Of a stretch of 64,000 nt of DNA, positions 2,686 to 64,000 are shown piece by piece (position 1 is the stretch's first letter; each line of letters opens with the position of its first letter). The stretch is from the NCBI RefSeq assembly GCF_034702125.1, contig NC_085874.1, forward strand, positions 617,001-681,000, given 5' to 3'. This DNA is from Engraulis encrasicolus. Lineage: Eukaryota; Chordata; Actinopteri; Clupeiformes; Engraulidae. The notes under the pieces are model-generated. The model did no database searches and was not told the origin of the DNA. It was given only the letters and a program-made list of their open reading frames with translations. The position numbers were made by a program, and so were the translations under genes.

Positions 2686-5600
2686 GTAAGAAGTCCCACT
2701 TAAAGTCGTTTAACTTTTCGAAATTTCACTTTATTTTTCCTCAGTTAAAGTAGCTGATCTAATGGCATGTTTAAATCTCAGGTCCAATTTAAACCAAAAT
2801 CAATTTTTTTGTATTTTCATCACTTCAGGGGCAGCTATTTTCTTTGAATTCAAGCACTACAAACCTAAGAAAAGGTTCACCAGCACAAAGTGTTTTGGCT
2901 TCATGGAGATGGATGAGATCAAGCCTGGGCCCATCGTGATTGAGTTGTACGTACTATGCACATTTTCATTTTTTCATGCCCAGTCTTCCTTGTGTCTTTA
3001 AAGGACAATTATGGCGCTAAATTAAAATTGGAACAATAACGGGTCAATGGCAATGGCGAGTCAGGAAGTTTAGAGAGGAGAAATCCTAAGCTGTGCATTC
3101 CAAAGTTGAGCGATTTTTAACCTTTTAATTGAAAACAATTCATATTGACCAGGGGAGTATTCCAAGAACTTGTGGGGTATACTAAGAACATGATGAAGTT
3201 CACCAACAGGAAGTGGTAAATCTGGTAAAGATATACCTGCAGGTATCATATACTTAAGAAAATGAGGACTCCTGCCTCTTCTTTTAGATGATTTACCTCT
3301 ACCTCAAAGGTACCTACCTCAGCTTCTTAGTATACACCCCTGGCACAGTAGTCAGGTTAAGGTAACCTTGAGGCAGGGGTAAATCTAATTGAAGAGCCAG
3401 GAGTCCTGATTTTCTTAACTAAATGACACCTGTGGACTATCTATTGGCAAGTTTACCACTTATTATAAGTTAACTTAGTCATGTTTATTTAATTTAATTG
3501 TGTTCTTTAATGCAGGATTTTGGCATTACCGTTACCGAGCTGATAAAAGCATGACCATTTGCATGATGCCTCCTTAGGAGCCCAACTGAAATATTCAATT
3601 TTCTTATCAATCAAGTGAATAATCCATATAAGTGTCAGTGACAGCTTGGATAATCTACCTCAATAAGGCTGTTACAAAGTAAAATGTATGCTGATTTGTG
3701 TTCAGATATGTACAGTTTATCTGTCAAGTCCTGAGTGTAATATGGAGTGATGGGGGGGCTTTGTGATTCGGAAATGATCAATACAATACAATACAATACA
3801 ATATCTTTTATTTGTCATTGTGACAAGCACAACGAAATTGTGCATTCCTTGTTGAAGCAAAAATAAATAAAAAATAAGTAAAAAATAAGAATAAAAATAA
3901 AATAAAAAAAATGGAATAAAAAGAATGGTATGTATATAAAAACTATGCTTTTGATGCAAAATTCAGTTCTGTGATGGCCGCTGCATAGAAACTGTTCAGT
4001 CTGTTTGTCCTTGTCTTAATGGACCTGAATCTCCTGCCCGATGGCAGCAATTCAAAAAGACTGTGACCTGGGTGGGATGTGTCTCTCAGAATGCACTTGG
4101 CCTTTTTTAGGCAGCGGGTGCTGTGTAGGCCCTCCAAAGATGGAAGAGGGCAGCCAATAATGTTCTCTGCAGCCTTTATGACCCCCTGGAGCTCTTTCCT
4201 CTGTGCCACGGTGCAGCCTGGGAACCACACACAAAGACAATATGTCAATATGCTCTCCACTGAGCAGCGGTAGAAGGACACAAGCAGCTTCTGACAGATG
4301 TTGTTTTTCCTAAGTATTCTTAGGAAATAAAGTCTTTGCTTTTATCTACGTTTATCTTTTATCACACTCATTTATAATTCTCTACAAGAGCACTGCGCAC
4401 CATACTCAGCAGATGTTCTGCTGGCAGACACCAGGCTGTATCAGGGCCCTCATCTTGTAGCTCGAGCTGTGAAGGCCATACATCAGCTGGTTCACACAAC
4501 TCCCTATCTCATCTCCAGCCCCCGTAGATAAATTCAAAGCAGTATCAGTAATCCATATGCAATACACCATACATACAGTACAATATACTGTAGTCCTATT
4601 GACAAGTAGTGCGGGAAATGCTCATTTAATTCGAGCCAAGTATGAATCTTCTCCCCCCATACACACACACGCACACACACCTCTTCAGTATAATGTAATG
4701 TAATAATAATGTAACGCATTATACAACATGACATATTGTATATGACATGTTAGAAAGTTATTTTCTGAGGGCTCCTAGTCTAGAATTGCAACATATACCC
4801 TAAAGAAACACCATGCAAAGTCTGGTGCTTTTGTCACTTCTATAACGGTGCAAGTGTTAACCGACCCCACTATTTACGTACTTGGGCCACACCCAAAGCT
4901 TGAATCTAATGACTTGGCATGGCATTTTACTCTTCACATTTTCATTTCACATTGTAGATGTCATTTAATGTCTATTTTTACACTCAATGAAGGGAAAAGA
5001 CATTTTCATTCATTGAGCAATGAAAACGTTGAAAGAGCATGACAGATTGACTTCATCATTTGCCATGTTCAGCTGCGGTTTTCTGTGCTTTGTTGCTAAA
5101 CTGCATGAATTGTGCTACACATTGTTTGGTATTATTATTTGCTTTTGTTTTCCATCCCTACACTTCCATAATAAGCCATATGGGTCATTCCACGCCAAAT
5201 CAACAAGAGCCCGCACACTTAGGTCTCAAAAAATTCTGAAAATATTACTGAGTGTACCCATGGTACTTAAGAGAAACACTGTTACTTTATTTGAATGTAA
5301 GATGTATACTCTCCATGTTACAGCCAATTTCACTGGGGGAGGGGGGTGCCCATTTTGTTCACACTCTTTTTTTTGTCAAAGTTCACAAGCCCGTAGCTCA
5401 AGAACTAAACCTAGTAGGAAGCTCAAATTTGGCATGCTGGTACATAGATAGGAATAGTTTGTTGCAGCACAGTCAGTTTTGGCCTGGGTGATCCTGCATA
5501 GCCGTGATCCTGCATAGCCATTGCATTCCCTCAAAGATTATACAATATAGGAGTTTTTGTCTGTGCTCAGTTTAGGCCTTCAGAAGACATATTTGTGCCC

Positions 5601-7460
5601 AACATAGCCTCATGATTTTTTCCCCTTGTAGATACAAGTAGAAACACTCCCATAAAAATCTATAAATAGAAAGGAAACCCCATCAGTGTTTGACCAGAAG
5701 ACCTCACCAGTCTGACAAATCATTTTGGGTGTCATTTTCAGAGCACCAGAACACCTTGTGGGATTGTCCACAGATTTTTATTTTATATTTTTCTTCATTC
5801 TCCATGAAGTCTTCTTTTTAAAAATGCCAATAAGACTTGTCTTATGTGATGTTTTCTTTTGTAATTTCCACCCTGAACATGGGCAAAATGCAAAAAGAGA
5901 GCAATATGATTTCAATAACATTTAATGTAAAGACTAAATAATCAAATGCAAATTTTGCCCAGACATGATCACCAGAGAGTCCCTGTGCAGGGGTGCAGGT
6001 ATCCCTTTCAATTTAAATGATTTCAGGAGCGTTCAATGTGGGAGCAGGTTCGCACACCAAAAGAGACAGTAGGTCAGGCACAAGGAGTCATGTTGTTACT
6101 TTTTTTGACCAGCAGATGGCAGCGGAAGAAATGCATAGAAAACATATTGCCCTCAATGTGCATGTTGCCCATGTTCAGGTTGGAAATTACAAAAGAAAAC
6201 ATCACATAAGACAAGTCTCATTTGCATTTTTAAAAAGAAGAATTCATGGAGAATGAAGAAAAAAAAAAAAAAATCTGTGGACAATCCCACAAGGGGTTCT
6301 GGAGCTCTGAAAATGACACCCAAAATGATTTGTCAGACTTGTGAGGTCTTCTGGTCAAACACTAATGGGGTTTCCTTTCTATTTCTAGATTTGTATGAGA
6401 GTGTTCCTACTTGTCTCTACAAGGGAAAAAAAACAAGAGGCTATGTTGGGCACAAATATGTTTTCTGAAGGCCTACACAGAGCACAGCCAAAAACTCTTT
6501 GAGGGAATGCCATGACGATACAGGATCATACAGACCAAAACTGACAGTTTTGCAACAAACTATTCCTATCTATGTACCAGCATGCCAAATTTGAGCTTCC
6601 TACATGGTTTAGTTATTGAGCTACGGGCTTGTGAACTTTGACAAAAAAAAGAGTGTGAACAAAATGGGCACCCCCCTCCCCCAGTGAAATTGGCTGTAAC
6701 ATGCAGAGTATACATCTTACATTCAAATAAAGTAACAGTGTTTCTTTTAAGTACCATGGGTACACAAGCACAAACACACTCAAAGTGTGCAGTCATGGCT
6801 AAGCGGTTAGGGCAGGGGTGGGCCTAATGTTTCGAGGGCCATTTGCGGCCCTTGTTGCCGTTTTATACGGCCCCCGGTATAATTTCAATGTTATGCAGTT
6901 TCACATTACATTCAGGGGACCTAGAGTGGGGTCTGTTTGAAAGGTGGCTGGCTTCAATATAGGCCTAAAGTGCAGGGGAAATCCTGGTTTGTGCTCATAA
7001 TATGGCCCTCGGAGGACTTTTACGGCCCTCGGAGGAATTTGAAGTGGCCCTTCGAATGAATAAGGTTCCCCACCCCTGGGTTAGTGCATCAGACTTATGG
7101 CTCAGGGGTTGCCGGTTCAACTCCCAACACGCCAGGTTGGTGGGGGGAGTAATTTACCAGTGCTCTCCCCATCCTCCTCCATAACTGAGGTACCCTAAGC
7201 ATGGCACCGTCCCGTCACACTGCCCTCCTTGCACGGGTGAGGCATACATGCAATTTCGCTGTGAGCAGTGTGCATTTGTGTGCTGTGGAGTGTCGTGTCA
7301 CAATGACAATGGGAGGTGGGCTTTCACTTCATCTGTGTTTGTTTTCTGATTTTCTTCCCACAGGTACAAGAAGCCAACTGACTTCAAGAGGAAGAAATTG
7401 CACCTCTTGACCAAGAAACCACTCTACCTTCATCTCCATCAGACTTTGCACAAAGACTGA
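2563..7460 (+). CDS. aida: aida (axin interactor, dorsalization-associated), last three coding exons
   Basis: AIDA binds axin, interferes with axin-driven JNK activation and affects dorsoventral patterning. Its C-terminal half is a membrane-binding C2 domain. Three exons are visible: 2563-2685 (after CTCTGCAG, donor GTAAGA), 2829-2946 (after TTCAG, donor GTACGT) and 7364-7460 (after CCACAG, stop TGA at 7458-7460). Their phases join exactly (2+120+1, 2+114+2, 1+96). Key residues include KLTKGAAIFFEFKHYKPKKR, FMEMDEIKPGPIVIEL and the terminal HLHQTLHKD, which match vertebrate AIDA as I know it. The N-terminal exons lie to the left of the window. The last intron (4.4 kb) holds a LINE fragment, a large palindrome and an interrupted SINE. 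The gene is convergent with mia3. Confidence 0.93.
2829..2946 (+). CDS. aida: aida exon: C2-domain core
   Basis: The exon encodes FFEFKHYKPKKRFTSTKC and GFMEMDEIKPGPIVIEL. The acceptor is CACTTCAG|GG and the donor is GAGTT|GTACGT. Phase fits both neighbours. Confidence 0.92.
3120..3540. repeat. Inverted-repeat MITE, family also near 47740 and 48380
   Basis: The segment contains a left arm (TATTCCAAGAACTTG, AGGAAGTGGTAAA, ATGAGGACTCCTG) and a partly complementary right arm (GAGCCAGGAGTCCTGAT). The same phrases recur in taf1a introns at about 47740-47925 and 48380-48545. There is no coding capacity. The ends are not sharply defined. Confidence 0.5.
3781..4310 (-). mobile_element. L2-like LINE fragment (minus strand), 3' end
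   Basis: On the minus strand 3943-4281 encodes the RT C-terminal tail with IESILTYCLCVW-type and LPSGRRFR motifs, like the copies at 95 and 34298. The 3' tail on this strand is a pentamer array (TATTG repeats, plus-strand 3781-3802). It is 5' truncated and lacks the catalytic RT motifs. Confidence 0.8.
4311..5180. other. aida intron sequence, no recognised element
   Basis: I see no exon or recognisable transposon here beyond a short CA-rich patch at 4660-4682. The sequence is AT-rich and carries several in-frame stops in all frames. Confidence 0.4.
5250..6765. repeat. Long near-palindrome (foldback element), about 1.5 kb
   Basis: The left arm (about 5250-5915) and right arm (about 6135-6765) are reverse complements over more than 600 bp with scattered mismatches. 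Examples are TACTTAAGAGAAACACTGTT at 5269 against its complement near 6750, and ATGTGATGTTTTC at 5846 against GAAAACATCACAT near 6200. The centre is about 200 bp of unrelated sequence. No transposase is visible. It sits in the last intron of aida. Confidence 0.85.
6795..7345 (+). mobile_element. tRNA-derived SINE, split by a hAT MITE
   Basis: The left piece (AGTCATGGCTAAGCGGTTAG, box A-like) ends at about 6812. The rest resumes at about 7079 with box B (GCCGGTTCAACTCC) and the SINE body (ACTGAGGTACCCTAAGCATG, GCATACATGCAATTTC). The uninterrupted relative at 28797-29106 gives the expected order. It ends 20-40 bp before the last aida exon acceptor. Confidence 0.8.
6813..7078. mobile_element. 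hAT MITE inserted in a SINE, 266 bp
   Basis: Termini CAGGGGTGGG and CCCACCCCTG are inverted. The flanking 8-mers are GGTTAGGG (6805-6812) and GGTTAGTG (7079-7086), a target duplication with one mismatch. The interior is rich in GGCCCTCGGAGGA phrases, and there is no ORF of note. Confidence 0.75.
7364..7460 (+). CDS. aida: aida last coding exon
   Basis: The exon follows TTCTTCCCACAG and encodes YKKPTDFKRKKLHLLTKK through HKD, then TGA. A long 3'UTR follows. Confidence 0.93.
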
Positions 7461-29500: not shown

Positions 29501-30477
29501 AGCTCGCAGCTCCTCATTGGACTCTTTGCAATCCGTCAGCTCGTTGTCTTTTGCCTTCAGCTAAATACAAAATGGTGGCATTTAGAACAAGCCAATGATT
29601 TCCTCAGGGTAAATAGCACTTATTTGAGTGGGGCATATCATACCGCTTTCTGGAGCTCTGCAATTTTTGCTGTACACTGATGATTCAGATCCAGCAGATG
29701 TACAATCCTTGCAGCAATTTGTTTTTCTGTAACTACACAAATAAGATTGGAGCATTTAAATTAGTTTATGTCCAGTTCAGGAAAAAATGCAATGTTAAAG
29801 CACTAACTCAAACAGGTTAAAGGTGTATGCCACTATTTTGGGGCTTAATACAGTTAAAATCGTTGGCTGGGGTTTATAAAGGTGGAAAAGTGTCTTATTT
29901 TTCATGTTAAGCGTTGTCTTGCTTTAAGACCAGTTAAAAGAGGGAATATGTCGCTAAGCTAGTGAAAGTCAATGTATCCATGTAGCATGCTACAATGCTA
30001 CACGGATACATTGACTTTCACTAGCTTAGCAACATATTCCCTCTTTTAACTTGTCTTAAAGCAAGACAACGCTTAACATGAAAAATAAGACATTTTACCA
30101 CCTTTATAAACCCCAGCCAACGATTTTAACTGTATTAAGCCCCAAAATAGTGGCATACCCCTTTAATGCTAATCTTACCTTGATACATTCTGCTTTTTAC
30201 CTGCAAAAGAAATTCAAAAAAGTAAGTTATTAGTGTTTGAAAACAAACAACAATCAACATGCATGAATACCACGTCGGCCAATGTCACATAAGTACTTAA
30301 ATAAAGACAATAATTGCATTACAGCAAGAACAGTCCTCCAAATGAATGTCAGAAAGGTGAGGACTCCCACTGCCATGGTCCAGGCCACAGGCTCCCAGGG
30401 AAGCCCGAAGAAGGTCGGCCCAGGTCTCCATTCCTCCGGCAAGGTGGCAACCAGCTAGACATCGAAGAAAGGGGGGC

Positions 30478-33500: not shown

Positions 33501-36500
33501 AAGAAGTCATCTACTACCACCCTCAATGACTTTCGCCCTGTTGCACTCACTCCAGTCATCACCAAGTGCTTTGAAAAACTGGTGCTGAGACACATAAAAG
33601 CCCGTCTCCCCCCAACCCTAGACCCTCATCAGTTTGCATACCGGGCAAACAGATCCACTGAGGATGCAATAGCCATTGCTCTCCACTCTGCACTGAGTCA
33701 CCTGGAAAGACAAGGAAGCTACGTCAGGATGCTCTTCATCGATTATAGCTCAGCTTTTAACGCCATCATTCCTGACATCCTAATCCCCAAGCTGAGACAT
33801 CTAGGACTTCCATCATCCACATGCTCCTGGATCAAAGACTTCCTTGTTAATCGTCCCCAACAGGTGAAACTAGGTCACCATCTCTCAACCACCCGCACCC
33901 TCAGCACCAGCTCGCCCCAAGGATGTGTGTTGAGCCCACTTCTCTACTCCCTCTACACATTTGACTGTAGCCCCATCCACCCAGAGAACATCATTGTCAA
34001 ATTTGCAGATGACACAACAGTGGTGGGGCTGATAACCGAGGGAAAGGAGGAGGCCTACAGAGATGAGGTCCTGAAACTTGGAGAGTGGTGTGCATCCAAC
34101 AACCTGGCCCTGAACATCTCCAAGACAAAGGAGCTCATCCTGGACTTCCGGCGGAACAAAGATGCTCCTGCCCCCCTGTACATCAATGGAGAACGTGTAG
34201 AGCAAGTGAGCTCATTTAAATTCCTAGGTGTACACATCTCCGCTGATCTCTCCTGGTCGACTAACACCTCGGCTCTGGTAAAAAAGGCCCGCAGCGATTG
34301 CACTTCCTCAGAGTACTCAAGAAAGAACAGTTAGACTCAAGCTTGCTGGTGACCTTTTACCGTTCCACTATAGAGAGCCTGCTGACCTACGCCGTGTCAG
34401 TGTGGCACTCAAGTTGCACTGAGGCTGACAGGAAGAGACTGCAGAGGGTGACCAAAACAGCACAAAAAATCATAGGCTGGCCCCTGTCTCCCATACCCAC
34501 CATCTACAACTCACGCTGCGTAAGTAGAGCCAGGAGTATCATTAAAGATCCCACACATCCTGGCTTTCATCTCTTTACACTGTTGCCCTCTGGCAGGCGC
34601 TACAAGGCATTGCCAGCCAGAACCAATAGGATGAAGAACAGCTTCTTCCCCAGAGCTGTTACAACAATGAACACAAACTTACTGGACAATGTGCATCTAT
34701 AAAGGACTGTGCACTTCGTAGGGAAGCTAAAATCTCGGTATACTTTGTATACTGACAATAAAGGCTTTCTATTCTATTCTATCTATATTTTAATCATTCT
34801 CCTATTTTTAGTTGTATATAGGTTACATGTATAAATTCATTGATGCTTCGTTATTACTTTTTCTGCTGTTATTTCTCCGTTTTAATGTAAAGTGACCTTG
34901 GGTATCTTGAAAGGCGCTTAAAGTTTATTTTTATTATTACTAGCCATACATGTGAAAGTTTGGCTGCATCATAAAGGGTCATATCTGTGGTGTAAAATCT
35001 GGAATTAGAGCTGTCAAAAACCTTCCGAAATGGATCTCTGTTTCTCTGTTTGACTAGAGTGTTTCTGACAGAACTACAGTAAAATAAAACAGCGCTACAG
35101 GGTATTTCTACTGATGAAACTGAGAAATGAGACACACATATTTTCCAAATGCATCACTGTGGTATACGTGAGTATTATTCACATATTACTGTAGTAAATT
35201 CAGTATATGATGGAAAAAACAACTGCACACTGCAGTTACAAGGAATTTACTCACCTCTCCAACAGTCAGGCCAAGATAAAGACGAGCAGCCTTTAACGCC
35301 GTTCGCATTGCAGCGAAAACTGTCGATGAGCCGGCTTCATCCTGAATGGGCTCTTCAGAGAAATCTGGAACACGAGGGTCAATTGAACCTGCAAATGTTT
35401 GCAAAGAGAGAGGGGTGGGGTGGAGGGGGGGAAAATTAACCTCTATGCTCTGAAAAAAATATTTTAAAAATTATCAAGATATCAGTCTCATGTTACCAAC
35501 CTGTAGTTGAATGGTCAGCATCAATACCAAGTCCAACATCCAAAGGGCTCTCCCGAATACGCTGTGGACCTCTCTGGATTTTCTCTTGCTTGTTATGGCT
35601 GGCCTGGCTATCCTTGTTTCGGTGTCCCGCGTCCTCCTCGATGGCCACGTTCGCACTGTGAGGCAAGTCACTACGGTCACTTTGTTCTGAATGGGGCTCC
35701 GACGTGTAGTGATGATGCTCCTGTTCATCGTCGATGGCAACGTCATCGTCTGTTGTGTCGGCTTTGGTCTCTGTTGAGTTATTGGCAGATTCCTCATCAG
35801 CTTCAGGTGACTCTGTCTCTTCTAGGGATAGAAAAACAGGTATATTTAATTCACCTACTTAACCTCTATGCTACAAAAAAAGATATTCAAGATGTTAATG
35901 CATGTCACCAACCTGTAGTTGAATGGTCAGCATCAATACCAAGTCCAACATCTAAAGGGCTCTCCCGAATACGCTGTGGACCGCTCTGTATATCCTCTGG
36001 CTTGTTATGGCTGGCCTGGCTGGCCTTGTTTCTGTGTTCTGCGTCGTCCTCGATGGCCACGTTGGTACTGTGAGGCAAGTCACTATGGTCACTTTGTTCT
36101 GAATGGGGCTCCGACGTGTAGTGATGATGCTCCTGTTCATCGTCGATGGCAACGTCATCGTCTGTTGTGTCGGCTTTGGTCTCCGTTGAGTTATTGGCAG
36201 ATTCCTCATCAGATTCAGGTGACTTGGCCTCTTCTGGAGATAGAAAAACAGGTATATTTAATTCACCTACTTAACCTCTATGCTACAAAAAAAGATATTC
36301 AAGAAGTTAATGCATGTCACCAACCTGTAGTTGAATGGTCAGCATCAATACCAAGTCCAACATCCAAAGGACTCTCCTGAATATGCTGTGGACTTCCCTG
36401 TCTCTCCTCTGGCTCATTGGTGCTGGCCTGGCTGTCCTGGTTTCTGTGTCCCGCATCCTCCTCGATGGCCACGTTGGCACTGTGAGGCAAGTCACTACGG

Positions 36501-39500
36501 TCACTTTGTTCTGAATGGGGCTCCAACGTGTTGTGATGATGCTCCTGATCATCACCGATGGCAACGTCATCGTCTGCTGTTAATGTATTGACGGATTCCT
36601 CGTCAGCTTCGGGTGACTCTGCCTCTTCTGGGGATGGAATAACATCAGGTATATTTAATTCACCTATTGTTCACATGAATGCACCTTTGACACTATCCAG
36701 CTGCTTGCTGCAGAAGAGTTGAACTTGCGGTTTGCGCGCACACAGACACACACCTCAGGGTTTCCCCCAACACTTTATTGCTAAGGCAACCACCTTGTCA
36801 AGAAACACCAACCACCTTGACTAGGTCCCCTGAAAAGATTAAGTATTCCTGTTGTGAATGTAATTTCTAAAGTTGCTCATCGCATTTAGTAGCTAAATAC
36901 ATACTTTTAAGAGTTTTAAGATCATATTTCAAATGAAACTGCACAGCACAGTATGTCTACTGATGATGGTGACTTGTCTCTGATGCAGACTTAACGCCCC
37001 ACCAACCTTGACTAACGGAATTCTGCAGGAAACACTGCATGGGCTTACAGGAGGGTTTCAGTTATAAAAAAGAAAAAGATCTAACCTGTTAACGGCTCCT
37101 CCTGAGCTTTTGCCACGAGCGGTGCACTGTCATTGGCCAGGGAGTACTTCTGCCTCAAGGTGAAGGCCAGCTCCTGGAAGTCATCCAAGATGGCCGCCTC
37201 CTCATCGAACATAGTTTCATCTTCCCTCTCCACGTCAGAGGTTCTTTGCTCCCTGCTGTCTAGCAATTTCTCAACCTCGTCCAGGATGGTAGTCTCCGAG
37301 GACTCAAGGATGGCCTCCAGGGCCCTCTCCGTGTCGTCAGAACTGTCCGTCTGAGATAGCCGTGCAGCCTTCAGCTCCTGGTCCAGGTCGTTAAACATGG
37401 CCTCGATCTGGAGCAAGTGGTTCAAAGTTAAATACCTCTGGAGCCGTGCCATGTCATTCTCTTTGAAATGGTCCCTTATAATCGTCAGCCTGAGAACACT
37501 GTCACTGTACTCCGGCATGTCTGCAACTGTCGTGGCCGTCTGGCGTTCCATGGCAGTGTCTGTGTCAATATCTGCATCAGTGATGTTATTTGATTCATCA
37601 GTGGGCAGAACTTCAGTGGGTGTGGGGTCTGCCTCTGCTGGATTTGGAGCAGTTGTTGCTGCTGCTGCTGCTGGAGCCAGTTCTGGTGGGGTTACGTCAG
37701 AGGCGACCTCAGCTTCCACGGTCTCAGAGCTCCGAGTCCACTCCTTCCGTTTGTCCTGTGGTGAGACCTGAGCTCCCACGGTCTCAGAGCTCCGAGTCCA
37801 CTCCTTCCGTTTGTCCTGTGGTGAGGCCTGAGCTCCCACTGTTTCAGGGCTCCGGGTCCCATCTTTCGAGCGGTCCTGTTGGTGATGTTGAGGATGTTGT
37901 GGAGTGGCTGAGTAGAATGACATTACAGCATTTTCGTCTGGAAGTAACCCTTGCAGCCGTTGTTCTGGGGGTACTGAACGCTCTTCTATTCTCCAAGGAT
38001 CTACATAACTGCTTTTCCCAGGATCTTCTTTTCTGGTGTCTAGTTCTTTTTTCATTTTCTGCACAAAACTGCGAAAATCCGGTTTCTCCTCAGAATGTTT
38101 GCCTTTTGTTCGCTCTTCAGTAGTCTTGTCAGGAGTGTGATCTTGAGGAGAGGATACCGTCATTGCGTCGTCCTCTTCTGGGAAACGCTCCATGTTGCTT
38201 ACTTCAGCCAATGCCACTTCATCACTATCTACGAAACTGTGAAAATCCGGTATTTTTGCTTTTGTTACCTCTTCTTGTTCTTGGAGCTCACCTTCTAGAG
38301 GAGTATCATTTTGAGGAGAGGATAGTTTTGTTAAATTGTCCTTCTCTGGGACACTCTCTGTGTCGCTTACTTCAGGCAATATCACGTCATCTTCATCATC
38401 ATCATCGTCGTCATTGTCATTGTCATCTACGAAACTGTGTAAATCCGGTATCTCCTCAGACCATTTGGCTGTTGTTGTCAGGTCAGAAGTCTGGTCAACC
38501 GATTCTTCCGGGCCAGGTGACAAATCCTGTGGATGGAGTTCTTGTGTGGGTTCCTCACTTTCCACACTGTCATTCTGGTCACCTTCTAGAGGAGTGTTAT
38601 TTTGAGGAGAGGATAATGTTATTACATCGCCCTCTTCTGGGACGCTCTCGGTGTCGCTTACTTCAGCCAATGCCACATCATCATTATCTACAAAACTGTT
38701 CAAATCTGGCATGTCCTCAGACTGGTTAGCTTTTTTTTCTTCAATTAATGGGTCAGAAGTTTCCTCAGGTCCAGATGACAAGTCCTGTGGATGGAGTTCT
38801 TGTGTGGGTTCCTCACTTTCCACATTCTGGTCAACTTCTAGAGGAGTGTCATCCTGAGGAGAGGATACTTTCGATGAATCATCCTCGTTTGGGATGCTTT
38901 CGGTGTCGCTTACTTCAGCCAATGCCACAGCATTACTTGCTGGCTGTGACTCTGAGGACCTCAACAAATGATCCAAGTTATAACTTTCAAACTGATCTAG
39001 GCCCGAATCAAAACAGACGAAATCTGTTTCCTGAAATAGAGAACAGATAACTTATCACAATGTTATGAAGTTTCTTGGATTAAACAATAACAACTCCACA
39101 CACATGAATTGCCACACATATTTAAATTGTTAACTATGAAAGGGGTAAAGTAAACTATCGGACTTGTTACATTATTGATCATAATTCAATGTATTGGTCA
39201 AAAGAACACACCTCAGCCGGAACCTCTATTTCCTTCTCTGTATATATATGATTAAGGATGAATAGGTCTTTGGGAAAATAGCCAAATCGGCTGCCCACCT
39301 GTGAAACACAAATCCAAACATTAAAAGAGTGAACTCAAAAAGTCATTATGACAAAATTCCTGGTTACTTTGACAATGACAATAACTCCTTGAATGTTTGT
39401 GTACAGTGCTTAATACTTAATACTAATACTTAATACAGTGCTTAATACTTGGGATGAAACATGAAGAAATGTCAATGGGGGTGGGGTGAAGGCTTCAGAA

Positions 39501-59902: not shown

Positions 59903-60115
59903 GACAGGGGGTCGCAAAGTCCTCTTGATTTTAAGGAATTTCATAATTTAATTTAATAATATGTTTAGGTCCACCTTACACATCTATTTAAAAAGATCAT
60001 TATCTTCCTGGAAAAGAGCGTTTGCACCTTTCGAGAAGCAGAGCAGAGGGGGAAAGTCACCAAAGTTTACAATGGTAAAAAAAAATATGGGTCTCTGAAG
60101 AAAAAACACTTTTAT
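59903..60115. mobile_element. Truncated hAT MITE, relative of 2095-2454
   Basis: GACAGGGGGTCGCAAAGTCC, CTCTTGATTTTAAGG and CACCAAAGTTTACAATGGTA match the 2095 element in order. The terminal inverted repeats are missing. Confidence 0.7.
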
Positions 60116-60399
60116 ACTAGAGGACTTAGTTGAGAGTGCTGTGGACTGAAATGTTACCCCTGGGTCTGTGGACTGTAATGTTACAGCATGAGAATGACAT
60201 GAGTGAATCATCACTGTGGATTGTGCAGCTGTTAGATGCTGCTGAGTCTGTGTGAATGTACTCTCCAGTCTTGACTAGGAGATTAATATGATACCTCAAG
60301 AAATGCAGATTGACATTTAGTCAATGTCAATTTAAAAAATCGCATCGAGCTTGTGCATGAATATGACGCAAAGAAAAGAAATTACAATACATTACACTC

Positions 60400-60575
60400 C
60401 AAGCGACTTACAGATATTTATAGGGTATTAGTTACAGTCCCTGGAGCAAAGTGAGGTCAAGTGCACTCAAACCATGAATGGAGGTGTAGCGAGAGGTACG
60501 GGTGGGATTCGAACCAGCAACCCTCTGATCGTTGTAAATACCAATAACTGTTAGCCCACAGCTGCCCCGAAATAG
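60400..60575 (-). mobile_element. tRNA-derived SINE, minus strand
   Basis: On the minus strand GGGGCAGCTGTGGGCTAACA (box A region) and GCTGGTTCGAATCCCACCC (box B) start the element. The plus-strand ATTACACTCCAAGCGACTTA region is its body. Confidence 0.65.
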
Positions 60576-60850
60576 CCATAGTTCATCCATTTTGAGCACA
60601 CAAAAAAACTGATTTGTTTTATGCTATTGTAGCAGTGAAGATAATGCCTACACATTTATTTTTATTTTGTTATTTTCATTTCATAAATGTGTGAACTTTC
60701 ATTTTATGTTGGTGTTTATTTCCCCAAAATCCTTTCTCTGTATTTAGTTTTGAACTTGCTGGTATTGGGAGATTTGTTCATTTCTTGTGTTATAGCACCC
60801 TCTAGTGGCGTGCGCGACCTGTCTTTTGTTTTGCACGTTCTTCTCTGTTC

Positions 60851-61198
60851 AGTCTGCGCTGAGCTGAGCAGGGAAAGGTACGTATTTTCATGGAGCTCCG
60901 ATGTTGCAAAGTAATCCGTGTGTTGCAATGTCGCAATGTTGCATCTTTCATTTCCAAATGTTGTATTATCTTATGTACATGTAAAAACCTTTGTGATGAG
61001 CATTTTGTTTCGTTTGAAATATGTATTTTGAGAGCACTAAATAGCTATCAAGCTAACCACTTGTTGTAGGCACTGACTAGCCTTTTGTCTCTGACTTGGC
61101 GCCTGAATATGTATGGTGTGTTTTTCATGTTAGGCTGGTCCGATGACGACGTGAATGCGGTGCCTAACCCTTTTGTGCTCTTTTTGTTGTTTAAAAAG
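60851..61198 (+). other. Two exon-like blocks with splice borders (unspliced copy of LTR leader)
   Basis: Block 1 is 60851-60877 (27 nt, AGTCTGCGCTGAGCTGAGCA + GGGAAAG), preceded by a pyrimidine tract and CAG-like boundary (TTCTTCTCTGTTCAG) and followed by GTACGT. Block 2 is 61134-61198 (65 nt, starts GCTGGTCCGATG, ends TTTAAAAAG), preceded by TTTTTCATGTTAG and followed by GTATGT. The interval (60878-61133, 256 nt) is GT-AG with branch-like CTGAC motifs (61074, 61092). Both blocks recur, joined and identical, at 61442-61533. Confidence 0.75.
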
Positions 61199-61335
61199 GT
61201 ATGTACTCCCAATACCAGTGAATTGCTATGAGTGTGTTGATATGTTTGCATTGTATTTTTCTGAATGCATTTGATTATTATTATTAAGTAATTTCCTATT
61301 ACTACTATTGGAGTTTTGTAATGAAGCATTCAGTC

Positions 61336-61644
61336 TGTGATGTTACATTATGTATGTTATGGCCCTACAGAGCATTTTAATGCAGTTTTATTGTAATACA
61401 GTAGTTTTACACTGTACTGTATTTTGTTTTACAATTTTGTGAGTCTGCGCTGAGCTGAGCAGGGAAAGGCTGGTCCGATGACGACGTGAATGCGGTGCCT
61501 AACCCTTTTGTGCTCTTTTTGTTGTTTAAAAAGAAAATAAAAGAATACAGCTGAGGAACAGAACGGCATCAGTGGTCCTTTCTCCCCCCTTTGGCACCGG
61601 AACACAGCGCAGGGTAGCCGGGACAGTAGAGCGTTCCGGCTACA
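61336..61644 (+). repeat. Probable 5' LTR of a Ty3/gypsy element
   Basis: It likely begins TGTGATGTTACATTATG (61336) and ends GTTCCGGCTACA (61644), just before the primer site. It contains AATAAA at 61536-61541. The transcript start probably lies near 61442 (AGTCTGCGCTGAG). The left border is a guess because the 3' LTR is outside the window. Confidence 0.6.
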
Positions 61645-61645
61645 G

Positions 61646-61663
61646 TGGTGCCGTGACCCGGAT
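61646..61663 (+). promoter_or_regulatory. Primer-binding site, tRNA-His type
   Basis: TGGTGCCGTGACCCGGAT is complementary to the 3' end of tRNA-His as I know it, with one mismatch (C for T). It lies one base after the proposed LTR end, as expected for LTR retrotransposons. Confidence 0.75.
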
Positions 61664-61905
61664 GGTTTCGCTTCAGATCATCGCCAGAGTGATCGCCGGT
61701 GGTTGCTGCAGAATACCCTGAAGACGCTGATGTTGTTCCAAGTACTCGTATGAATGCAAACATAATGTGGTTTATGATTATTTAGTTTCAATTTATTCTT
61801 CCCTTTTTGTTTTGAGTGTTTGAATACATAACACTGACTAAGAAGTACAACACTTAACATTTTACACTTAATACTGATTATTTACATTGCTGAAGACTAT
61901 TTAAC

Positions 61906-63393
61906 ATGGCTGAGGGAAATGACATGGATGTGCCTTTTAACTGTGATGATGGTGGTAATGCAGTAGTGGGTGTAGGCAGGGGTAAGCTATTTGGGAACGT
62001 GGAACCGACTCCAGTTGGGGGTGTTCATGAAATAGGAAACCCTGTATCATCCTCTACATACCTGGTTACTGACTCGCACACACCCACACCACACAGGCCT
62101 GGCCCTAGTCTGAGGAATTTTCCTGGCGTAGGCAGGGGTGTTAGTGCAGTACGCCACCCTGTATCGTCATTCACACGCATGCACACTGATGAGCCCCCTA
62201 GTCCAGGTGTGGACACCACTGACATAGGCCATCTCATTACACAGTTGGCCCAACAAATAGGTGAGAACATCGCAAGTCAATTAAATAAATCCACTCAGAG
62301 TCAACAAAGTCAGCCCACTCCCACTCTTAACACACCCAGTCTGAACATGGGCCAGGGACAGTCTGACTTAAACATGACTGGAGTCAAGTTGGTGATGAAG
62401 ACAGATGTCCGGGAGCCACCATACTTCAGAGGGGATGGGACTGATAAGCACACAGTGCATGAGTGGGAAGAAATCATGGATGTCTACCTGAAAAAGAGGG
62501 GTGTCCCACCACAAGAGTACTCCCAAGAAATCCTGTCCAGACTGATGGGAAAGGCCAGAGACATTGTTAAAGTTACACTGCGTAGTGTTCCATCCTTAAA
62601 GCCTGCAGAGAATCCTAAGCTTGTCTTTGATGTACTCAAGCAGCATTTCAGTGAAGTAACTTACTCCTCAATGCCTCTAGCAGATTTTTATAACACACTC
62701 CCCCTGAATGGTGAAAGCCCAATGGACTACTGGATCCGCTTGAACAAAGCTGTGGACGTCGCGGATGAGTGTCTGAGAAGACAGGGGCGAAACATTGAAG
62801 ACCCCTCACATGAAGTCACAATGATGCTGGTGAAACACTGTCCTGACCCCGCCCTCGCCAGTGTCCTGAAGTGTAAGACAGCTGAGAAGTGGACAGCAAA
62901 CGAGATTCAGGAGCATCTTGTCGAACACCAGAGGGAGGCTCGCACAAAGTCTCAGACCAGGTCAGTTCGACCAAAGCACATTGGCACTCATGTACAGACA
63001 TCCACGACCGAAGCAGTCGCTGTAGACAATGCCTGTGAGCCTGCTCCTCTCCAAACTACAGTGGGGCAGCCATCCCCATCTCCGACCGAGAGTGTTTACA
63101 TTCAGTCTCTCATCAGCCTGTTGGATCGTGTGCTGGAGCAGAAGGCTCAGACAGCGGCAGTTGAACCAACATACAAGGGGCCAGTAAACATTTTCCAGAG
63201 GAAATGCAGAGTGTGTCAGTCCACTGAGCATTCAACAACTGTTCACTGTAGGCAGGAGAATCTGTGCATGGGCTGTTACAAGCCAGACCACTGGAAGAAA
63301 GACTGCCCACAGCGCAAGCCGAGATTCAGTGCCACACCACAGCAGGCCCAGGCACAGCCCCAGGGCCAACAGCATGGCACACATTTAAACTAG
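61906..63393 (+). CDS. Ty3/gypsy gag polyprotein
   Basis: 495 codons from ATG 61906 to TAG 63391-63393. A low-complexity Pro/Thr-rich N terminus is followed by a capsid-like helical region (residues about 165-340: EPPYFRGDGTDKHTVHEWEE, MDVYLKKRGVPPQEYSQEIL, LSRLMGKARDIVKVTLRSVP). Two zinc-knuckle-like motifs follow near residues 430-465: C-x2-C-x4-H-x5-C (slightly irregular) and a canonical C-x2-C-x4-H-x4-C (CMGCYKPDHWKKDC). The final codons overlap a -1 frameshift signal. The ORF is intact, suggesting a young element. Confidence 0.9.
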   Translation: MAEGNDMDVPFNCDDGGNAVVGVGRGKLFGNVEPTPVGGVHEIGNPVSSSTYLVTDSHTPTPHRPGPSLRNFPGVGRGVSAVRHPVSSFTRMHTDEPPSPGVDTTDIGHLITQLAQQIGENIASQLNKSTQSQQSQPTPTLNTPSLNMGQGQSDLNMTGVKLVMKTDVREPPYFRGDGTDKHTVHEWEEIMDVYLKKRGVPPQEYSQEILSRLMGKARDIVKVTLRSVPSLKPAENPKLVFDVLKQHFSEVTYSSMPLADFYNTLPLNGESPMDYWIRLNKAVDVADECLRRQGRNIEDPSHEVTMMLVKHCPDPALASVLKCKTAEKWTANEIQEHLVEHQREARTKSQTRSVRPKHIGTHVQTSTTEAVAVDNACEPAPLQTTVGQPSPSPTESVYIQSLISLLDRVLEQKAQTAAVEPTYKGPVNIFQRKCRVCQSTEHSTTVHCRQENLCMGCYKPDHWKKDCPQRKPRFSATPQQAQAQPQGQQHGTHLN

Positions 63394-63425
63394 GTGGCCC
63401 GCATTTAGCGAGGGAGCGTGTGGGC
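63384..63425 (+). promoter_or_regulatory. -1 ribosomal frameshift signal at the gag/pol junction
   Basis: The slippery heptamer T TTA AAC (63384-63390) lies in the gag frame directly before TAG. A stem (GCCCGCA at 63397-63403 pairing with TGTGGGC at 63419-63425) begins 6 nt downstream, the usual spacing. The -1 frame is open from here to the window end. Confidence 0.75.
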
Positions 63426-64000
63426 ACTGAAACATCTACCCTCGAAGCAAATGAAGAATTAAAAGAGATGTATGTGAACGTCTGTAAAGTAATGCCAGAT
63501 GATTGTAAAGTAATTGTACAGAACACCCAGACCGTTGAGCCATTCGGTGAATTGTTCCATGCCCCAGTGATGATCAATGGTGCAGCTGAGCTGAGAGGGT
63601 TACTGGATACGGGGTCAATGGCCTGCACGATCAGTGAAGAGGCAGAGCGGAGACTCGTGTCGGAGAACGTTTTAACTCAGCTGCAACAACCAACCGAGCG
63701 CATCATCCTTGTAGGCTGTGGGGGAGTACAGGTGAGCCCCAAAGGCATGTACGACATGGAATTGAGTCTGTATGGTGTGAAGTGCACAGTCCCGGTCCTG
63801 GTGGTGCCTGGCCAGAAAGATGAGATCATTGTGGGGACCAACATGTTGAAGCATGTGCTGCGCCAGCTGAAAAATGATGACAACTACTGGGCGCTTCTCT
63901 CTCGCAACACCCAGGAGTCTTCTGAGTGTGAGCCGTTTTTGGAGATGATGGCCAGCCTCACGAGGTGGAGGGGTGCAGATGTGCCTGAAAAAGTAGGTAC
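63387..64000 (+). CDS. Ty3/gypsy pol start: aspartic protease (partial)
   Basis: The frame is -1 relative to gag and open to the window end. It contains the retropepsin active site LLDTGSMACTIS (63599 onward), then a flap-like segment with GCGGVQVSPKGMYDMELSLY and VLVVPGQKDEIIVGTNML, which matches the ILG-type end of the protease fold. Reverse transcriptase, RNase H and integrase would lie beyond the window. Expression depends on frameshifting at 63384-63390. Confidence 0.85.

Follow-up and report, generated by a model that had tools for sequence, protein, structure and literature searches.

The LTR retrotransposon at the right end of the window

The window, i.e., the whole stretch of DNA that was analyzed, comprises 64,000 bases of eukaryotic DNA with a GC content of 43%, and an LTR retrotransposon begins at its right end. 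We propose that its LTR spans positions 60628-61644 of the + strand (1017 nt; TGTAGC...GCTACA). This segment is bordered by a 6-nt terminal inverted repeat, and a PBS-like 18-mer (TGGTGCCGTGACCCGGAT; 61646-61663, + strand) is read 1 nt past its end. Because gag comes after it, the LTR is presumably the 5' one. The gag reading frame (61906-63393, + strand) is open from its ATG, encodes 495 amino acids, and contains a C-X2-C-X4-H-X4-C knuckle close to its end. A further open frame on the same strand (63264-63998), which leaves the window at its end, encodes an aspartyl protease (LLDTGS) and matches the Pfam families Asp_protease_2 (E 3.4e-07) and gag-asp_proteas (E 1e-06), both above the cut-off. 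The locus hence displays a TG...CA LTR with a PBS-like site as well as gag and aspartyl protease, the hallmarks of an LTR retrotransposon.

The Gag protein has 276 relatives at E values up to 0.001, with identities of up to 95% among the best 120 of these 276, and the named relatives among the matches listed are those of fishes, including Coilia, Merluccius, Dallia, and Leuciscus. Its Pfam matches to PNMA and zf-CCHC are weak and fall below the cut-off, while a precomputed PNMA domain is present on one relative among the matches listed (P0028). The PNMA match fits what we take to be a Ty3/gypsy Gag, a class that such a match does not prove. The element is a fish LTR retrotransposon that probably belongs to Ty3/gypsy, judging from its gag and protease; its reverse transcriptase, integrase and second LTR would lie beyond the end of the window. 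An earlier note on this DNA had spoken of a gypsy LTR; gag and protease are indeed present, and the name has just these two as its basis, with the remainder of pol lying beyond the window. Judged by its sequence, the element looks otherwise ordinary, and its unusual part appears to be the R region.

Searches of several collections were carried out with the element. Among viral contigs, a scan with patterns from the gag alignment gave 16 pattern matches and exact DNA patterns gave none; among prokaryote contigs the corresponding figures were 25 and none, and not a single one of these 16 and 25 gag pattern matches was confirmed. A tblastn search with gag in phages and plasmids gave no match. Because none of these collections is expected to contain fish DNA, their silence says little about the family. 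In the protein collection, the antisense frame across the fused copy described below (61432-61677, minus strand) yielded no candidate, and that across the unspliced copy (61051-61329, minus strand) yielded one candidate, none scored, and no homologue.

Directly upstream of the LTR, at 60450-60580, lies a stretch with a tRNA-like GATTCGAACC box and a SINE-like look; ARAGORN found no tRNA gene in the window, and no Rfam family matched within it at the gathering score. Elsewhere in the window we noted a near-perfect palindrome at 29817-30166 (172-nt arms, 97% complementary, 6 nt apart), a nest of long inverted repeats at 5252-6765 (arms of 255, 243, and 139 nt, 90-94% complementary) that is possibly a large foldback element, and three direct repeats with a spacing of 412 nt at 35489-36612, two of which are 94% and 84% identical to the 300-nt reference copy.

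Two blocks of the LTR and their fused copy

Two separate blocks of the LTR, 60851-60877 (27 nt) and 61134-61198 (65 nt), recur further downstream in fused form at 61442-61533 of the + strand. The earlier note had described this arrangement as 100 percent identical, and a letter-for-letter comparison confirmed it at 92 of 92 positions (27/27 against 61442-61468 and 65/65 against 61469-61533). The outer edges of the 92-nt repeat are sharp; its left edge can be extended by 0 nt, and on the right a G at 61199 faces an A at 61534. The inner junction has a slack of 3 nt (AGG), exactly as expected for an intron lying between AG and G, and four placements consequently give the same copy. With one of these four placements the omitted interval, 60878-61133 (256 nt), begins with GT and ends with AG, as had been claimed for it; local dinucleotide frequencies predict such a coincidence by chance in about 2% of cases (0.02).

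How singular this arrangement is can be seen when the window's + strand is scanned for exact blocks, each at least 13 nt long, that adjoin each other at one site and are separated by 30-3000 nt at another; 13-mers of low complexity or present in more than 40 copies were excluded. The scan returned 12 cases, and the fused copy (recorded there as 28 + 67 nt) was the only one with a GT...AG interval. The other 11 all fall into one tandem array at 43.8-44.3 kb, and in none of them (0/11) is the interval of the GT...AG type.

We refer to the two blocks as the leader exons E1 (60851-60877, + strand) and E2 (61134-61198, + strand; ending in CTAAC, a T-rich tract, and AAAAAG) and to the interval between them as intron 1 (60878-61133, + strand; AAG/GTACGT...TGTTAG/G). 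When all positions from 60600 to 62000 were scored with a general vertebrate donor matrix, the two best donors were 60878 (AAG/GTACGT) and 61199 (AAG/GTATGT), which mark the ends of both blocks; the GTATGT to which the earlier note had pointed behind the second block in the unspliced copy is the latter of the two. Scores as high as theirs are reached at 25 and 29 positions, respectively, of the window's entire + strand. The consensus MAG/GTRAGT is matched at no fewer than 8 of its 9 positions by four sites in 60001-63991, half of which are the donors 60878 and 61199. The acceptor of intron 1 at 61133 is the second-best one of 60600-62000, and CTGAC branch-point candidates are found about 40 and 58 nt before the end of the intron (39 and 57 nt if counted as for intron 2). 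A sequence scan thus finds the GT...AG ends, the donor, the acceptor, and the branch-point signals of a spliceosomal intron together in this interval.

One might instead suppose that R was duplicated in tandem long ago and that intron 1 was later gained as an inserted element, a 253-nt insert flanked by a 3-nt AGG repeat. AGG does flank the interval, but any intron of the type AG/GT...AG/G shows the same, and neither the ending of the second block at a donor nor the identity at 92 of 92 positions is explained in this way; we regard such a history as improbable. The earlier note had likewise raised the prospect that the interval is a transposon with its own ends; its 40-nt ends, however, reach a best local score of 6 with each other and form no terminal inverted repeat, and the interval has no other BLAST match within the window. 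A longer tandem would fit the slight resemblance seen upstream of the two copies, where T-rich 17-mers at 60819-60835 and 61417-61433 agree at 15 of 17 positions. The fractions of shuffled sequences reaching this similarity were 0.0005, 0.0015, and 0.01 for flanks of 40, 60, and 100 nt, respectively. We hold it to be weak because a third T-rich copy of the 17-mer is present at 60738-60754, a rival stretch at 60731 scores nearly as high (21 vs. 24), the shuffle fraction rises up to 0.01, and an end-anchored alignment is not significant (0.134). It would fit an old, longer duplication of which the transcribed part alone stayed identical, a weak suggestion on which we do not lean.

The left edge of the repeat coincides with the A of an initiator-like TCAGTC (60849-60854, + strand), and transcription may well start at about this A at position 60851, with which the repeated block begins and which is the candidate cap site. 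TCAGTC accounts for two of the six TCAKTY matches in 60601-61700, and the repeat edge falls on the A of one of them. The consensus scan gave no TATA match in the region upstream of the proposed start, which would constitute U3 (60628-60850, + strand). It had been suggested in the earlier note that the fused copy spans the transcript start; the initiator-like motif sits at the unspliced block instead. The fused copy has an identical first base, but TTTTGTG comes before it, and the consensus scan lists neither an initiator nor a TATA match there.

With the splice sites and the initiator-like motif at the edges of a repeat that is exact over 92 nt, and with the gag frame downstream of it open, an artefact of the one assembly seen, or mere coincidence, is a very remote prospect for which we found no supporting point. 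The joined-block scan of the window together with the ranks of the splice sites leads us to reject chance.

Among the acceptor-like sites of 60600-62000, the AG at 60851-60852 within the initiator-like motif ranks first (GTTCTTCTCTGTTCAG/TCTGCG). Because of this, E1 might alternatively be an internal exon of a transcript that comes from an upstream host gene or another element, and the fused copy would then have been captured from readthrough RNA. The top rank of this site and the fact that the repeated block starts with that very AG speak for this possibility. An acceptor AG is itself not copied into spliced RNA, however, so both sequence contexts would need an AG by chance. Moreover, those suffixes of the sequence preceding the fused copy that match the window over 8 nt or more do so over just 8-9 nt, and GT follows none of the matches listed. 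Capture of a host exon was likewise examined and rejected, since within the window the sequence before the fused copy is without a source, 9 nt being the longest match of a suffix. An internal exon of 25 nt, the size E1 would then have, is unusual. We therefore prefer a cap at 60851, on account of both the chance AG that a copied acceptor would demand and the preceding sequence that is without a source in the window, and consider the internal-exon origin of E1 quite unlikely.

A candidate second intron, the poly(A) signal, and the proposed R region

The end of the second block at a strong donor suggests that the leader contains another intron. We propose intron 2 at 61199-61533 (+ strand), with the donor AAG/GTATGT at 61199, the second best of 60600-62000, and the acceptor AAAAAG at 61533, so that the fused copy would lie inside the intron and its last base would also be that of the intron. 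In its terminal part the fused copy has a CTAAC, whose A at 61502 lies 31 nt upstream of the last base, and then a T-rich tract and AAAAAG. Of the 12 AGs that were listed from 61260-61645, the acceptor at 61533 has, jointly with 61313, the highest pyrimidine content, and it is the sole one with a CTAAC in range. A crude matrix gives it a score of 3.0, which places it outside the 20 best acceptors of 60600-62000, and AAAAAG is a poor ending for a pyrimidine tract. Six AGs between 61199 and 61646 score higher than 61533 (61218, 61370, 61401, 61462, 61607, and 61645), the first of which is too near to the donor at 61199.

The fused copy is directly followed by AAAATAAAAG, which contains the poly(A) signal AATAAA at 61536-61541 (+ strand), the only match to AATAAA or ATTAAA in 60601-61900. 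The earlier note had placed this signal inside the fused copy; it actually lies 2 nt beyond it. We propose that the fused and already spliced copy of E1 and E2 forms the body of R, and that R would end at a cleavage site about 10-25 nt beyond AATAAA. The length of R implied by the fused copy and this spacing is presumably an ordinary one.

Taken together, these features make a reverse transcript of a capped, doubly spliced leader RNA the most plausible reading of the fused copy. That an RNA spliced in its leader had been reverse transcribed was already the view of the earlier note, and it is well supported by the GT...AG interval, the ends of both blocks at the two top-ranking donors, and the initiator-like left edge. 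The routes then envisaged, namely an intron-bearing relative upstream of the LTR or readthrough from host exons, fit less well than the simpler route of two introns in the LTR's own leader. With both introns located there, and with the copy corresponding to a strong-stop product, a captured host exon is unnecessary.

Proposed replication through a spliced leader

Minus-strand transfer involves pairing of the strong-stop DNA made from the 5' end of the RNA with the R region at the 3' end, and a junction at the U3-R border is its expected signature (PMC10085805). For the element in the window we propose the following. Transcription would begin at about 60851, and the leader would be spliced at 60877^61134 and 61198^61534. 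The genomic RNA would then start with E1-E2-AAAATAAAAG..., i.e., with the letters of the fused copy and of what lies directly behind it. Such a doubly spliced RNA would give rise to minus-strand strong-stop DNA that could pair end to end with the fused copy which the RNA carries at its 3' end, and extension of this DNA would copy the intron-bearing stretch upstream. The introns would not be erased by splicing, because the strong-stop DNA pairs with the 3' fused copy and the introns are copied by extension. The fused copy of the 5' LTR would be removed within intron 2 and then restored from E1 and E2, and if it is rewritten from these exons in every cycle, it would stay identical to them. The arrangement itself probably had a single origin, in which the intron 2 stretch of an unspliced 3' end served as the template for extending strong-stop DNA that came from a spliced leader.

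To follow the consequences of these steps, block labels were passed through minus-strand transfer in a block model that presupposes 61533 as the acceptor and a simple pairing of ends. The observed order U3-E1-i1-E2-i2-E1-E2-E3-U5 remained unchanged when none or both of the introns were spliced. Splicing of intron 1 alone gave a longer LTR and that of intron 2 alone a shorter one, from which it follows that the two introns would have to be spliced almost always together or not at all. If it lacked the fused copy, an LTR stayed constant only if unspliced and otherwise lost the spliced intron or introns, two of its three spliced outcomes being fixed by a rule in the script. Since the acceptor at 61533 and the end pairing were premises, the model attests consistency, not fact. 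Still, an LTR that is stable through a doubly spliced cycle, and that would lose its introns if it had no fused copy, suggests that this copy is more than a scar. An element that truly splices both introns in its genomic RNA would need something like it in order to retain them.

Our first choice, held with slightly better than even confidence, is accordingly that the 5' LTR of this fish retrotransposon contains two spliceosomal introns in its leader and that the family uses the fused copy, which reproduces the spliced leader and is rewritten in each cycle, as its working R. The site of this copy just before the poly(A) signal, the ordinary length of R, and the self-consistent acceptor all favor a working R. 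We give about an even chance to the wider proposition that the family keeps its LTR introns over endless RNA cycles by storing a pre-spliced leader as R that is renewed in each generation; as part of the same joint claim, and with the same balanced odds, the fused copy would serve both as the landing site of the strong-stop DNA and as the acceptor of intron 2. This picture of an R that maintains itself is drawn from a single LTR of one copy of the element. The earlier note had counted the presence of both copies in all LTRs of the family, as an old tandem unrelated to splicing, against its reading; such a presence would not in itself speak against splicing, since maintenance of the kind proposed here predicts it.

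The principal alternative shares with our first choice the origin from a doubly spliced, capped RNA. The spliced leader would have been reverse transcribed in the one cycle or the few cycles behind this insertion, outside the normal life cycle of the family, which otherwise would replicate through unspliced leaders. The sequence evidence for a spliced template is the same for both, a single perfect copy is also expected from a very recent event, and in the block model unspliced RNA preserves the introns of an LTR whether or not it has the fused copy. The fused copy occupies, however, the place that a working R requires, with AATAAA following after 2 nt, and use of its end as an acceptor could give the same leader again; a template switch that landed at random is not expected to provide both the R position and a usable acceptor. 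We thus consider a recent one-off event to be the less likely explanation, albeit one that deserves to be taken seriously, and continue with a working R that is rewritten from its own exons.

An intron in the leader favors expression and export of an RNA in general, and the leader intron of this element would, if our proposal is true, aid its expression and export. The proposal further predicts an identity that reaches from the exact cap site to the exact donor and is renewed in each generation. Within open-licence papers and with the terms used, our search of the literature found no LTR of such a design.

The proposed R resembles that of ordinary LTR retrotransposons and retroviruses in that strong-stop DNA pairs with the 3' R (PMC10085805). 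Unlike an ordinary R, its 5' version would be made by splicing from a genomic source that is interrupted by introns, and its 3' version would be a pre-spliced copy. Among the plant LTR elements, Ogre and EVADE also have spliceosomal introns in their RNA, and the genomic RNA of these elements remains unspliced. These introns are described as yielding subgenomic RNAs through alternative splicing, a description that does not locate them in the LTR (PMC12786077).

The internal repeats of PAT/Ngaro and DIRS1-like elements, which probably restore the ends of these elements during replication, provide the nearest structural analogy that we can offer, and splicing is not known to take part in their replication. 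PAT and Ngaro elements are described as having split direct repeats and DIRS1-like elements as having internal complementary regions (PMC4157794; PMC3266345); the analogy lies in internal repeats that copy separated end sequences. These elements use a tyrosine recombinase, and the LTR and PBS anatomy seen here argues against membership in this group.

In the indicator introns used with Ty and in later reporters, the loss of an intron marks passage through a spliced RNA (PMC12786077). Intron loss can serve as a marker of retrotransposition because the introns of an element copied from RNA should go at the first spliced cycle (PMC12786077). Here, in contrast, an intron-less copy has been added beside its intron-bearing source, in one LTR and naturally. 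If our proposal is true, an LTR that is spliced in its leader and still transmits its introns would represent a natural way round intron loss.
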